Origin: an uncultured Bacteroidales bacterium
Lineage (GTDB): Bacteria > Bacteroidota > Bacteroidia > Bacteroidales > P3
Assembly (NCBI GenBank): GCA_947168515.1
Contig: CAMVMF010000011.1
Span: 1-64,000 of the forward strand
Length of the DNA stretch: 64,000 nt
Direction of reading: 5' to 3'
Shown in pieces: positions 6,465-57,468 of the stretch. Below the pieces are notes generated by a model, which was not told where the DNA came from, made no database searches, and was given only the letters and a program-made list of their open reading frames with translations. Each line of letters starts with the position of its first letter. The stretch's first letter is position 1. Both the position numbers and the translations under genes were made by a program.

Positions 6465-9122
6465 TTGAAACGCCTCCTGTTCATCCTCTTATTCCTATAT
6501 GTATGCGGCTGCTCGGCACAGACCGACACTGCCTTCTGGTTTACCGCGCCACATGAGTTCAGGAACTCACACTCGTCATACCTGCATATCTTCACCACCG
6601 ACCAGCCAGCAATAGTAACCATTAGCATGCCTGCTGCTTCACCTCTGACATATCCCCCTATCATTGACACCATCGAAGCCAATAGCTTTTCCAGGCATCA
6701 CCTACCATTGGTATGGGTGGGACGCAACATTGGGACAATACCCAATATAATCAACAACTTAGGAATCCTTATTACATCCACAACCCCTGTTTCATGCTAT
6801 CTGGACTACTCCCACATGACTAGTGACATCACTGCTTTGAAGGGAAGCCATGCCCTAGGCACCGACTTTGTGGTTCCTATGCAAAACATAATAGGCTGCC
6901 AGCCCAATGGGTACGACAGGGGCCACATACAGGTCGTAGCCACAGAGGATAGCACGGTGGTCCAAATGACACCACCACCTGGGCGGGCATTTAATGAGCT
7001 AAATATAGACGAGACGGTATCAGTCACTCTAAACAGGGGGCAGAGTTATGGCAGAGAATGTGCCGGTCTTACAGCCCATGACCGATTAGGAGGCACTACC
7101 ATCCATGCCTCGCGACCTATTGCGGTCAGCTTCAACGACTACGACCTGGCGCTCTACAGTCCTACCAATCCTTCCCCTTATGGAGCCTATAATGTGTTGG
7201 GCGACCAAATTCTACCTACCGACAAAACAGGCACACGATATGTAGCGATACGCTCACAAAATGCCGACTCTGACTATTATGAGCAAGTATGGATCTTCCC
7301 CAACCACCCCGACGACACGGTGGAAGTATACTTCAACGGCACCTTCAAGGACATCGTTCACCAACAGCATAATGGCCCATTCCTACTAGAAGACACCGCC
7401 ACACTAATCACCCTCAACAAGGCTGCCGTAGTACTCCAAATGACGTCTATGGCATCCCGTAGCAGCGGGGTAGGAACCACCATGTTGCCACCCATCGACT
7501 GCACAGGGACCCACAAAGCCTCCTATGTGCGCTATTCTTGGAACACTATGCTGCATATCCTGACCAAAAGAGCTTTCGTGTCTGACTTTCTGTTGGATGG
7601 GGACTCCACCTTTATAACAGCCAGCGACTTCCACACCCTTTCGGCCGACACCTCGCTGGCGTGGTGTTGCAAAGAGATTGTAACCCCCATAACCAATCCT
7701 TTCCATACAATTGACAGCCTGATAACCCTTGAAAATCGGTCCGGAACGTTCCATTTAGGTGTCCTTGAGCATAGAGGAGGTGCTCAAAACAATGCTGACT
7801 ACATCTACGATTGTGTGTTTGGCTATTTCTACGACTACAACCAACCATCACAAATCCGCCTCACGCTCGACACCGCCTATTGCAAAGGCGACAGCATCCT
7901 CTTCGCCTACGATGCCCCCCATATCGACGGTTTAGAACTTAGGGGTCCCAACGGCCTGCACCTGACTCAACCCCCCTTCGTACTCTACAATGTCGACAGC
8001 AACGCCACTGGGCGATACTATCTAGAAGGTGTTGACACCACCAGTTGCCACCAGTTGCGCACCGACTCGATAGACATAGTGGTGAGAGGTGGACACCTCA
8101 GTTTACTGACAGACACAACCTTCTGTACTGGAGACAGCATTTGTATCAATTATTCGGCTTCTGCCGATGTGGTAGACATTAGGCTGCATTGTCCTAACGG
8201 ACAAGTGATAGAGTCGCTCCCCTTAGTCCTCACCGAGGCAGACACCTCTATGAGCGGCCTCTATTGGATAGAGGGGAGGGATACGGGCCGTTGCCAGAGG
8301 GCTGTGGCCGACAGTTGCTATATACGAATAGTCAACAACCCCTATGCACAAGTATATGACACTATTGCCGAAAATCAACTACCATACACTCGCTACGAAA
8401 CCACCTTCGATGGGGATACCGATATTGTTTTGGTGGTGCCCAGTTCCTCATCGGTATGCGACAGCATTATAGACTACCATCTGAAAGTGTTTTACAATAC
8501 AGAAGACACTGTGCACTACTATACCTGCGAAAGCAATCTGCCAGTGCAATATGAGGGTGAGTGGTTTGATACGGAACAACAGCAAGGCCTATTCCACTTC
8601 ACGGGCAGCCATGGACAGGACAGCACCGTCACCTTCATTTTGCACGTCATACCCAACAGCGACACAACCATCTACGACACCATCCTAGACTCCCAGCTTC
8701 CATGGACCTTTAACGACATTGTTTTCGACGACTCGGTAGCCAACTACACCATCACCCTCACCAACGAGCAGGGTTGTGACAGCCTCATCCTTTACAACCT
8801 GCACGTATTCTGGAACGGCGACCGCTGCGACACCAACCTATCCTTCCCCAACCTCGTCACCCCTAACGGCGACGGCACCAACGACCGCTTCGTCATCACA
8901 GGACTACTGGAAAACAACTGCTTCAAATACAACGAGCTCTCCATCTACGACCGCACCGGCCGCCGTGTCTACCACAAAGTCAACATCGCCAACGACGACG
9001 ACTGGTGGGACCCCGCAGCACAACGCCTCACCGCCGGCACCTACTTCTACTACTTCAAAGCCCACGGCATCACCATCCACACCCAACACACCGGAGTCAT
9101 CGAGGTGCTGACCGATAAATAA
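6465..9122 (+). CDS. Secreted IgGFc-binding-like protein with T9SS type B C-terminal domain (paralog 2)
   Basis: 885 aa; same architecture; predicted TTG start. Confidence 0.78.
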   Translation: MKRLLFILLFLYVCGCSAQTDTAFWFTAPHEFRNSHSSYLHIFTTDQPAIVTISMPAASPLTYPPIIDTIEANSFSRHHLPLVWVGRNIGTIPNIINNLGILITSTTPVSCYLDYSHMTSDITALKGSHALGTDFVVPMQNIIGCQPNGYDRGHIQVVATEDSTVVQMTPPPGRAFNELNIDETVSVTLNRGQSYGRECAGLTAHDRLGGTTIHASRPIAVSFNDYDLALYSPTNPSPYGAYNVLGDQILPTDKTGTRYVAIRSQNADSDYYEQVWIFPNHPDDTVEVYFNGTFKDIVHQQHNGPFLLEDTATLITLNKAAVVLQMTSMASRSSGVGTTMLPPIDCTGTHKASYVRYSWNTMLHILTKRAFVSDFLLDGDSTFITASDFHTLSADTSLAWCCKEIVTPITNPFHTIDSLITLENRSGTFHLGVLEHRGGAQNNADYIYDCVFGYFYDYNQPSQIRLTLDTAYCKGDSILFAYDAPHIDGLELRGPNGLHLTQPPFVLYNVDSNATGRYYLEGVDTTSCHQLRTDSIDIVVRGGHLSLLTDTTFCTGDSICINYSASADVVDIRLHCPNGQVIESLPLVLTEADTSMSGLYWIEGRDTGRCQRAVADSCYIRIVNNPYAQVYDTIAENQLPYTRYETTFDGDTDIVLVVPSSSSVCDSIIDYHLKVFYNTEDTVHYYTCESNLPVQYEGEWFDTEQQQGLFHFTGSHGQDSTVTFILHVIPNSDTTIYDTILDSQLPWTFNDIVFDDSVANYTITLTNEQGCDSLILYNLHVFWNGDRCDTNLSFPNLVTPNGDGTNDRFVITGLLENNCFKYNELSIYDRTGRRVYHKVNIANDDDWWDPAAQRLTAGTYFYYFKAHGITIHTQHTGVIEVLTDK

Positions 9123-9135
9123 AAGTAAAAGGTAA

Positions 9136-9307
9136 GGCTCTAGTTTAATATAAGACTGATTTTTTACAGCCTCGAAGAGGCTGAATCTCAGTAACACCGT
9201 ACAAGCGTAGCGCAGTGCGGTGACGGAATAAACTCACTCCTAGCGTCCCGAAGGGACGCGACATTGAGACCGTTTGGCAAAAATCAGTCATATGTTGTAC
9301 TAGAGCG
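9136..9307 (+). mobile_element. MITE-like element copy A (172 bp)
   Basis: GGCTCTAGTTTAATATAAGACTGATTTTT ... AAAAATCAGTCATATGTTGTACTAGAGCG imperfect TIRs; 8-bp TSD AAAGGTAA at 9128-9135 and 9308-9315. Confidence 0.8.
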
Positions 9308-9619
9308 AAAGGTAAAAACTAAAAACTAAAAGGGTGGACGGGGCCGTTGAGAATGGAGAATGTAGAATTGAGAATTGAGATTTTTTTAAAGGTAAAAACT
9401 AAAAACTAAAAAGGTGGACGGGGCCGTTGAGAATTGAGAATTGAGATTTTTTTAAAGGTAAAAACTAAAAACTAAAAGAGTGGACGGGGCCGTTGAGAAT
9501 GGAGAATTGAGAATTGAGAATGGAGAATTGAGAATTTTTTAAAGGTAAAAACTAAAAACTAAAAAGGTGGACGGGGCCGTTGAGAATGGAGAATTGAGAA
9601 TTGAGAATTGCAATCCCAT
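9308..9619. repeat. Tandem array of ~66-87 bp units (aaaggtaaaaactaaaaactaaaa...gtggacggggccgttgagaat[t/g]gaga...)
   Basis: four unit starts at 9308, 9388, 9454, 9541; unit length varies with number of AATTGAG/AATGGAG sub-repeats. Confidence 0.85.
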
Positions 9620-9677: not shown

Positions 9678-12086
9678 ATGAAGCGGTTATTGCTTATAGC
9701 TTTTGTGTTTCTTTCTTCAGTCTGCCAAGCACAGACCGACACGGTATTTTGGTTTGCCGCACCCGACCTCTCCAGACTCAACAGCGATCCGTCGGAGCAG
9801 GTGGCCCGACTGGTCTTCCACACCTACGACCAACCTGCCACCATCACCATCGAGCAACCAGCCAACAGCCTCTTTCCGACCCATACCATCACCCTGCCTG
9901 CCAACGGACAGGCCGTCGATGACTTCATGTCTCTCTACTACAATAACTTTCTTGCCACCTCTCCTTCTAACACTATCCTAGACCGCGGTCTGCGCGTCTC
10001 TTCCTCCGCTCCCATCACCTGTTACTTCCAAATCACCTCCTCCCACCGCGAAACCTACACCCTCAAAGGTCGCCATGCCTTGGGGACGACCTTCTATCTG
10101 CTCTCGCCCTTGCCTTACCAGGACACCCCTTGGTTTGAAAATGGGCAAAGCATCGAAATTGTCGCCACCGAGGACAGCACCCTTGTCCTCATCACCGCAC
10201 CCAACTACGTCGACACTTTTGGCTACGACAATATTTGGTGGCACTACAACCATGGCACCGCCGTGTTCGAAGACAACGTGATGCCCGACAGCACCATCAG
10301 CATCATGCTCCACCGTGGCCAGAGCTACTGCTTGCGTGCCAAGCACCACGACACCGAAATCATCCGCACCATCATCCAGGCCTCACACCCCATCGCCGTC
10401 AACACCACCTCCTTCGACTGCATGTCCCGTGCCGTCGAGGGCGACACCACGCGGCATTCCGACATAGCCGGTGAGCAGCTGGTGCCTATTGAATATTGGG
10501 GGAATGAATACCTCCTCTTCAACACCCATTCCCATTCCGAGGTCTTCAAGGAACTCTTCCGCAGCTACACTTACCCGTCCGTCCATGGGTGGTTCAACAT
10601 CATCTTCAACGACGTCTATTACTTCATCGACGACCGCTGGTCGTTCAACGGCACCGGCTTCCTCCATCAGATTGACCCCAATCTACGCATGGGGGCCACC
10701 ATCCTCCCCCAGTTAGATTGTTCCGGCTCCCATCAAATCTCCTATCGCAGCTCCGATAGCACCTCCCTCACCATCCACATGGTCATCCCCACCTCTGCCA
10801 CCGGCCACATCCTCTTCAACGGTGACTCCACTATTATCACCGCAGCAGACTTCAGCCCAGCCCCACGCAACCCCCGGCTCTCCTTCTGCGTCAAAGAGGT
10901 CACCCCTTTCCTCACCCCCTTGGATTCCCTCACCACTGCCGGCGTGATGAACATCCGCTGCGACTCGGCCAAATTCCTCCTAGCCGTCATTGAATCCGAC
11001 AGCACCCACGGCACCTCATACACCTACCTCACCGACTACGCCCCCAACCCTAAGCTGTTCTTCAACATGGACACCGATTACTGTGCCGGCGACGACATAA
11101 TCTTCTCTTTCGACAATTACAACATCGACAGCCTTCGCATCCTCTGCCCAGACGGCAGCGTTCTGTCCGCCCCTCCCTACATCCTCTCCAATGCCGACAC
11201 CTCCATGAGCGGAGCTTACATCGTCGAAGGCATCACCCACAACGACTGCCACCCCATCGTATCCGACACCATCAACATCCACATCTTCGATGTCCCCCAT
11301 GAGCACATCTATGACACCGCCACCTCCAATGCCTTGCCGTTGAGCCGCTTCGGTATGCTCTTCTTCCACACAACCGACACTATCATCCTGCGTCCCAACC
11401 CTGCAGCACCCTGCGACAGCGTCCTGCACTACCACCTTTTTGTCCTACCCGATGTCTCCGACACAGTGATTTACTATACCTGTGAGGGCGACCTGCCGGT
11501 ACAATACGGCGACAGCCTTTTCTACCAAGAGGGCGAGGGCACATTCCACTTCTATGGCAGCCACGGCGAGGACAGCCTTGTCACCTTTATTCTCCACATC
11601 ATCCCCAACAGCGATACCACCATCTACGACACCATCACCGAAGACCAGCTGCCATGGTACGCCTTCGACACCGTGTTCACAGACTCGGTGGCCGACTATA
11701 TCTACCACACCAACAACGAGGCAGGCTGCGACAGCCTCGTCCACTACAACCTGTATGTCTTTTGGAACGGCGACCACTGCGACACCAATCTCTCCTATCC
11801 CAACCTCGTCACACCCAACGGCGACGGCACCAACGACCGCTTCGTCATCATGGGCCTACTGGAAAACAACTGCTTCAAATACAACGAGCTCTCCATCTAC
11901 GACCGCACCGGCCGCCGTGTCTACCACAAAGTCAACATCGCCAACGAGAGCGACTGGTGGGACCCCGCCGCTCAGCACATCCCCGCCGGCACCTATTTCT
12001 ACTACTTCAAGGCCCACGGTGTCACTATCCACACCCAGCACACCGGAGTCATCGAGGTGCTGACCGAAAAGAAAAGTAAAAGGTAA
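9678..12086 (+). CDS. Secreted IgGFc-binding-like protein with T9SS type B C-terminal domain (paralog 3)
   Basis: 802 aa; signal peptide; HALGTTF...IVATEDST; VTPNGDGTNDRFVIMGLLENNCFKYNELSIYDRTGRRVY. Confidence 0.8.
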   Translation: MKRLLLIAFVFLSSVCQAQTDTVFWFAAPDLSRLNSDPSEQVARLVFHTYDQPATITIEQPANSLFPTHTITLPANGQAVDDFMSLYYNNFLATSPSNTILDRGLRVSSSAPITCYFQITSSHRETYTLKGRHALGTTFYLLSPLPYQDTPWFENGQSIEIVATEDSTLVLITAPNYVDTFGYDNIWWHYNHGTAVFEDNVMPDSTISIMLHRGQSYCLRAKHHDTEIIRTIIQASHPIAVNTTSFDCMSRAVEGDTTRHSDIAGEQLVPIEYWGNEYLLFNTHSHSEVFKELFRSYTYPSVHGWFNIIFNDVYYFIDDRWSFNGTGFLHQIDPNLRMGATILPQLDCSGSHQISYRSSDSTSLTIHMVIPTSATGHILFNGDSTIITAADFSPAPRNPRLSFCVKEVTPFLTPLDSLTTAGVMNIRCDSAKFLLAVIESDSTHGTSYTYLTDYAPNPKLFFNMDTDYCAGDDIIFSFDNYNIDSLRILCPDGSVLSAPPYILSNADTSMSGAYIVEGITHNDCHPIVSDTINIHIFDVPHEHIYDTATSNALPLSRFGMLFFHTTDTIILRPNPAAPCDSVLHYHLFVLPDVSDTVIYYTCEGDLPVQYGDSLFYQEGEGTFHFYGSHGEDSLVTFILHIIPNSDTTIYDTITEDQLPWYAFDTVFTDSVADYIYHTNNEAGCDSLVHYNLYVFWNGDHCDTNLSYPNLVTPNGDGTNDRFVIMGLLENNCFKYNELSIYDRTGRRVYHKVNIANESDWWDPAAQHIPAGTYFYYFKAHGVTIHTQHTGVIEVLTEKKSKR

Positions 12087-12366
12087 AAACTAAAAACTAG
12101 AAGGGTGGACGGGGCCGTTGAGAATAGAGAATTGAGAATTTTTAAAAAGTAAAAGGTAAAAACTAAAAACTAAAAGGTTTATGAAGATTAGCTCCGCGTA
12201 TCTCACGTATATTCACGTATTTTTATCCTCGTGATACGTGTGATACGGGGATTTAACTCCGCTGCCAAATCCCTAAAACTAAAAAGGTGGACGGGGTGAG
12301 AATTGAGAATTGAGAGTTGAGAATTGAGAGTTGAGAATTGAGAATTGAGAGTTGAGAATTGAGCTA
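12072..12366. repeat. Degenerate copies of the gtaaaaggtaaaaactaaaa / gtggacggggccgttgagaat / AATTGAG repeat family
   Basis: same words as 9308-9619, interrupted by the hairpin at 12197-12247. Confidence 0.75.
12197..12247. repeat. Intergenic hairpin CGTATCTCACGTAT...ATACGTGTGATACG
   Basis: 13/14 complementary arms flanked by gattagctccgcg / ggatttaactccgctgcc. Confidence 0.55.
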
Positions 12367-47443: not shown

Positions 47444-47615
47444 GGCTCTAGTTTAATATAAGACTGATTTTTTACAGCCTCGAAGAGGCTGAATCTCAGT
47501 AACACCGTACAAGCGTAGCGCAGTGCGGTGACGGAATAAACTCACTCCTAGCGTCCCGAAGGGACGCGACATTGAGACCGTTTGGCAAAAATTAGTCATA
47601 TGTTGTACTAGAGCG
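47444..47615 (+). mobile_element. MITE-like element copy B (172 bp)
   Basis: one mismatch to copy A by eye; perfect 8-bp TSD TTATATTT at 47436-47443 and 47616-47623. Confidence 0.85.
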
Positions 47616-48398: not shown

Positions 48399-48622
48399 GG
48401 CTCTAGTTTAATATAAGACTGATTTTTTACAGCCTCGAAGAGGCTGAATCTCAGTAACACCGTACAAGCGTAGCGCAGTGCGGTGACGGAATAAACTCAC
48501 TCCTAGCGTCCCGAAGATGAAGAAGAGCCAGTGGCTCTTCGATAACGAAGTACAACGAAGTGGAGAAAAAAAACGACATTGAGACCGTTTGGCAAAAATC
48601 AGTCATATGTTGTACTAGAGCG
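48399..48622 (+). mobile_element. MITE-like element copy C (224 bp, one hairpin module inserted)
   Basis: same ends as A/B; 57-bp segment 48517-48573 replaces the 5-bp GGACG. Confidence 0.75.
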
Positions 48623-57205: not shown

Positions 57206-57468
57206 CGCTCTAGTACAACATATGACTGATTTTTGCCAAACGGTCTCAATGTCGTTTTTTTTCTCCACTTCGTTGTACTTCGTTATCGAAGAGCCACTGG
57301 CTCTTCTTCATCTTCGGGACGCTAGGAGTGAGTTTATTCCGTCACCGCACTGCGCTACGCTAAATTCTCCGCTTCGCTATCGAAAGTCCACTGGACTTTC
57401 TTCACAGTGTTACTGAGATTCAGCCTCTTCGAGGCTGTAAAAAATCAGTCTTATATTAAACTAGAGCC
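57206..57468 (-). mobile_element. MITE-like element copy D (263 bp, two hairpin modules inserted)
   Basis: reverse orientation; perfect 8-bp TSD AAAAAAAT at 57198-57205 and 57469-57476. Confidence 0.8.

Follow-up and report, generated by a model that had tools for sequence, protein, structure and literature searches.

The 172-bp element designated here as copy A is a MITE of a known kind, the IS1595-derived one, with an interior that is not insertion sequence (IS) material. That interior is a widespread repeat of its own, made up of three hairpins and associated with Y1 (HUH) transposases, a feature beyond the view of an earlier reading made from the letters of the window alone (the window being the whole 64,000-nt stretch of DNA analysed). 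Since the ends are shared with an IS1595-family IS and the central module is linked to Y1 genes, we describe the element as an IS1595-type MITE with a REP-like core belonging to another system. It is probably a non-autonomous element moved in trans by the IS1595 transposase. The relevant features are listed in Table 1.

Table 1. Features of the element, of its relatives in the window and of the Y1 locus in the same genome (coordinates refer to the window unless preceded by L198).
Feature	Position	Strand	Details
MITE copy A, 172-bp short form	9136..9307	+	TIRs, TSD; 172/172 positions same as in six other genome copies
Left target-site duplication (TSD) AAAGGTAA	9128..9135	.	flank comparison; exact empty sites with one TSD copy
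Right TSD AAAGGTAA	9308..9315	.	flank comparison
Left TIR GGCTCTAGTTTAATATAAGACTGATTTTT	9136..9164	+	25-26/29 against right end of IS1595-family IS
Right TIR, reading inward CGCTCTAGTACAACATATGACTGATTTTT	9279..9307	-	25/29 against left end of IS1595-family IS
REP-like three-hairpin module, model R1	9166..9266	+	109.8 bits (a training sequence of R1)
Hairpin H1 (9167-9173 pairs 9177-9183)	9167..9183	+	covariation
Hairpin H2 (9195-9202 pairs 9215-9222)	9195..9222	+	covariation, e.g. CACCGTAC..GTGCGGTG vs CCCCATAC..GTGTGGGG
Hairpin H3 (9243-9249 pairs 9253-9259)	9243..9259	+	covariation
MITE copy B, 172 bp	47444..47615	+	TSD TTATATTT
MITE copy C, 224-bp long form	48399..48622	+	no TSD
Insert of copy C	48517..48573	+	57-bp hairpin in H3 loop, in place of the short-form GGACG
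MITE copy D, 263 bp	57206..57468	-	inserts in H3 and H2 region; TSD AAAAAAAT
Y1 gene of the same genome	L198 1486-1935		flanked on both sides by modules pointing inward
Module beside this Y1 gene	L198 1310-1444	+	
Module beside this Y1 gene	L198 1941-2049	-	

Copy A and the 8 bp repeated on either side of it lie exactly where the sequence-only reading had placed them, and a recount of the inverted ends agrees with its figure of about 23/27 after the first two bases (23/27 counted from base 3, 24/29 overall). The element is short and noncoding, being overlapped by mechanical ORFs only. When folded as single-stranded DNA, it reaches -41.1 kcal/mol (z = -8.0), a value that none of 200 shuffled sequences matched; in the predicted fold of the whole element the TIRs would form a stem and the three-hairpin module its tip. 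Copy A starts 14 bp downstream from the stop codon of an 885-aa protein (6465-9122) in which an IgGFc_binding domain is combined with a CHU_C type IX secretion signal. On its other side lies a low-complexity repeat (AAAGGTAAAAACTAAAAACTAAAA..GGACGGGGCCGTTGAGAATGGAGAATTGAG) spanning 9308-9560 and present again at 12072-12174; this repeat is dispersed, locally tandem and adjoins several MITE copies. Because copy A landed in such a repeat, exact empty sites are found at further places: the 30-bp sequence that results from joining the two flanks through a single AAAGGTAA occurs at 12145-12174 of the window, in L034 and in L008. The empty sites used for copy A are paralogous.

A DNA search of the source assembly (3.26 Mb in 112 contigs, 93% complete) with the element returned 51 matches, ranging from fragments to full copies. 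Nineteen complete copies could be delimited, all at unrelated sites; the TSD is perfect (8/8) in 14, scores 7/8 in two and is lacking in three. Other species of the genus contributed 15 complete copies, nine with an 8/8 and three with a 7/8 duplication. As a control, the left flank of each copy was paired with the right flank of another, and an 8/8 match was obtained in one of 1122 pairs. The target sites are A+T-rich. Seven copies are identical over the 172 positions, three have one base changed and one has a 1-bp deletion. Altogether, the number of copies, their TSDs, the identical copies and the empty sites demonstrate that the 172-bp element is a real mobile MITE that was recently active. 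The possibility that repeats were misassembled in this 112-contig draft, so that the copies are artefactual, gains something from the fact that several contigs terminate within copies. It seems negligible, since the flanks of 14 copies are unique, differ from copy to copy and show a matching TSD on either side, and the same pattern of flanks and TSDs recurs in other assemblies of the genus.

The count of four copies in the window made from sequence alone was correct, with the addition that two of them, C and D, are longer forms with hairpin inserts. The interpretation of that reading also withstands the check on copies lying outside the window, where it had seen a way to fail: their TSDs differ and their sites are unrelated. 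Copies B, C and D are located between the genes of a series of giant proteins (2144, 2791, 2389 and 2137 aa) encoded on the minus strand of 32263-63987. In the three of these proteins that were scanned, a type IX secretion tail accompanies fibronectin type III repeats and an InlB-type B-repeat domain; two of them also have a MAM domain. An IS1595-ended MITE of 183-184 bp is shared by three species of the genus (L167 in G006, L168 in G029 and L172 in G047) with 183-184 of 184 aligned positions identical, which suggests recent interspecies transfer.

The IS1595 link, previously suggested by the GGC ends and the 8-bp TSD, received support from the genome itself, and the full-length IS with the same TIRs that had been proposed as the thing to look for turned up in two copies. 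Both profile matches to PF12762 in the genome fall within an 1118-bp IS, and the two IS copies are 99.8% identical. The frame is intact and encodes a 353-aa transposase of the IS1595 family, exceeding the cut-offs of PF12762 (DDE_Tnp_IS1595) and PF12760 (Zn_ribbon_IS1595) and scoring 184.5 bits against NCBIfam NF033547 (transpos_IS1595; cut-off 75). The resemblance is end-specific, with the MITE's left end closest to the right end of the IS and vice versa (Table 1). The view of the element as a non-autonomous MITE is therefore upheld by its TIRs, by TSDs at independent sites and by autonomous partners in the same genome with matching ends. What MITE and IS have in common is limited to about 30 bp per end. 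In another Bacteroidales assembly, the same TIR motif precedes a partial transposase 98% identical to that of the IS (L098) and a second one 60% identical (L102). The 8-bp TSD expected of an IS1595 derivative is present in the MITE; none was found at either full-length IS copy (L033, L034), which counts against the explanation favoured here, and a possible cause is recombination or deletion beside these copies. ISL3, the other family with an 8-bp TSD considered as a parent, was set aside, PF01610 having no match in the 93% complete genome. A search of plasmid records gave no match. More distant transposases of the IS1595 type (46% identical; L054-L093) show near-uniform scores across many Bacillota and Fusobacteriota, e.g. 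streptococci, Veillonella, Selenomonas and Fusobacterium, and look like one widely transferred IS. As for the MITE, whose TSDs are directly visible, the enzyme acting on it would most likely be the IS1595 transposase, supplied in trans from another site in the genome and moving the MITE as a DDE-type element.

To describe the interior, 30 module sequences were aligned. The alignment contains three hairpins, with 98.5% of the cells paired and nine pairs changed on both sides, and conserved linkers between the hairpins; none of 500 shuffled alignments reached any of five measures. Two of the hairpins, CAGCCTCgaaGAGGCTG and GCGTCCCgaaGGGACGC, had been recognized in the sequence-only reading, which left the third, CACCGTAC..GTGCGGTG, off its list. 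Copy A is one of the 30 sequences used to train model R1 and owes its score of 109.8 bits to this construction; the independent evidence thus lies in module matches elsewhere. These are abundant: the interior matches dispersed sequences devoid of MITE ends, some in this genome and others in further species of the genus. The covariance model, for a module of about 103 nt (about 101 bp in the MITE interior), finds 118 copies in the genome and at least one in 49 of 59 genomes of the genus, the genus-wide counts having a ceiling of 68 per genome. Copy number is highly variable from species to species and tandem arrays occur. The MITE interior is, then, a repeat in its own right. Length variants differ by added hairpins at three places: in the loop of H2, in that of H3, or in the linker from H1 to H2. 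In the model alignment, inserts of at least 6 nt fall in the H2 loop (23 of 81), the H3 loop (four) or the H1-H2 linker (eight) and nowhere else, an outcome that a structure-fitted alignment favours. A further hairpin unit, GTTGC..GCAACGTCTCG, lies between H1 and H2 in L289, L290, L291, L294, L297 and L298.

Strong compensatory covariation, conserved linkers and intergenic location are also what one would expect if the module were a functional RNA or DNA regulatory element, active for example at mRNA 3' ends or on the expression of neighbours, which is carried by the MITE, maintained by selection and only secondarily linked to Y1 genes. We consider this improbable. No Rfam family was matched at gathering thresholds in the whole window and no terminator-like site was found around copy A; copy number varies widely between species, with modules in tandem arrays, and DNA hairpins recognised as single strands predict covariation just as well.

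The module is not confined to IS1595-type ends. In the same genome it also occurs inside other miniature transposons, of two or more kinds. One has ends ATGAYTATCCGC... / ...GCGGATAATCAT, and several of its copies show an 8-bp duplication (exact in 7 of 19, a few offsets being allowed). Another has ends GGGGACTTCTATWA... / ...TTAATAGAACCCACC and a 4-bp duplication in almost every correctly paired copy. Pattern searches for autonomous elements with the second or third end type gave no clear candidate. These findings bear on the simplest alternative, namely that copy A is an ordinary deletion derivative of an IS1595 element whose interior is incidental filler, its likeness to other repeats being meaningless. 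Although TIRs and TSD are those of such a MITE, the IS does not contain the interior sequence, the interior covaries, and it recurs between two other types of ends and beside Y1 genes. Module copies that stand alone or have another wrapping already contradict this alternative, which we regard as very unlikely.

The genome has a single PF01797 (Y1) gene, encoding a 149-aa protein with the motifs DHVH and YIKGQKEHH; the modules flanking this gene were not used in building the module model. At 22 of 31 Y1 loci from the genus a module is found within 400 bp, on both sides in 11; genome densities would predict 0.3 such loci (Poisson 2.6e-33, or 2e-18 at a fivefold density). The nearest module is oriented toward the Y1 gene in 28 of 33 cases. 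The flanking of a Y1 gene by a dispersed repeat, as seen at these 22 loci, makes the arrangement REPtron-like. Not all repeats adjoining Y1 genes are inverted; some are direct, which counts against the explanation we prefer. Of 30 readable Y1 proteins, 29 have the Y---Q--HH signature; in three of these DH[VI]H is replaced by NH[VI]H. Y---Q--HH together with DH[IV]H is the signature of TnpA Y1 subclass 1.2, which was tabulated in 2018 without REP and is described as occurring mostly in Cyanobacteria and Bacteroidetes (PMC6006769). Across 59 genomes, the relationship between Y1 presence and module number is weak (Spearman 0.43, p = 0.012, for genomes with a completeness of 90% or more), with mostly non-significant Fisher tests, and no Y1 gene was found in some module-rich genomes. 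This counts against the preferred explanation, and it is solely the gene-flanking position that carries the association.

Dispersed palindromic intergenic repeats that flank a Y1 HUH gene and form hairpin mosaics recall REP, REPIN and BIME sequences with their TnpA-REP (RAYT) proteins, as in REPtrons. The present module differs by its three hairpins and length of about 103 nt, as compared to a canonical palindrome of 20-40 bp with a GT[AG]G foot; alignment A2 has no conserved GTAG or GTGG foot, another point against the preferred explanation. The protein also differs, being of a subclass (1.2-like) listed without REPs (PMC6006769). The core is thus REPtron-like and not a canonical REP. The CGTC in H3 led us to consider CGTC-tagged REPs (PMC3733652), where this motif is an unpaired foot; here it lies within the stem. 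The core would most likely derive from a genus-wide, Y1-linked hairpin repeat of the REP/BIME kind, presumably mobilised, now or formerly, by Y1 transposases as single-stranded DNA.

How the module came to lie between IS ends can be envisaged in two ways. PMC3733652 describes TIRtrons, in which long inverted repeats, some belonging to dispersed families, surround a tyrosine transposase gene (TIRYT). The inverted modules around Y1 genes, about 100 bp long, fit this description, and dispersed TIR families of such genes are on record in the same source. The module could then have originated as a long terminal repeat in a Y1 element resembling TIRtrons (TIRYT; Di Nocera et al. 2013), caught repeatedly between unrelated IS ends without any Y1 insertion into palindromes. 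We consider this less likely than not, since alone it explains neither the central place of the module within at least three kinds of TIR pairs nor the further hairpins in module loops. The repeat described here differs from those of TIRtrons in serving also as the core of MITEs whose ends come from other transposons. In the alternative, a Y1 enzyme would insert the module at the tip of the TIR-TIR palindrome, entry into its middle thus replacing chance capture, a scheme consistent with both the central position and the loop inserts. Extending it, we tentatively propose that Y1 subclass 1.2 has its own REP-like triple hairpins in the genus, and that these may invade the tips of MITE palindromes and each other's hairpins, generating two-system hybrids that would spread both through HUH chemistry on single strands and through DDE transposition driven by several different ISs.

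The IS1595-ended MITE with a Y1-linked core has partial counterparts elsewhere. IS1595-family ISs and the MITEs derived from them share with it the transposase family, the 8-bp TSD and the ends, and differ in that its interior is a separate hairpin repeat and not IS sequence. The REP dimers within long palindromes of A. variabilis and H. neapolitanus are likewise REP-type repeats inside a palindrome; as far as the accessible text of PMC3733652 goes, those palindromes are not tied to an IS or to TSDs, whereas the palindrome enclosing the present module consists of paired IS1595-type TIRs bordered by TSDs. Bacteroidales MITEs with repeats inside IS-like ends also include BrickBuilt and others from Porphyromonas gingivalis; BrickBuilt differs by IS5-type ends, internal 23-nt tandem repeats, inconsistent TSDs and, in the available part of its description, no link to Y1 (PMC4596501). 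Searches of the open-licence literature gave no description of a MITE combining IS1595 ends with a Y1-linked core.

MITE interiors are commonly regarded as meaningless remnants. An interior that is a mobile-type repeat of a second transposition system, found within three kinds of ends, makes the acquisition of non-IS cores by MITEs directly testable. The same module, from a large genus of mostly uncultured Bacteroidales, could be the cognate repeat of a Y1 transposase subclass to which none has been ascribed.
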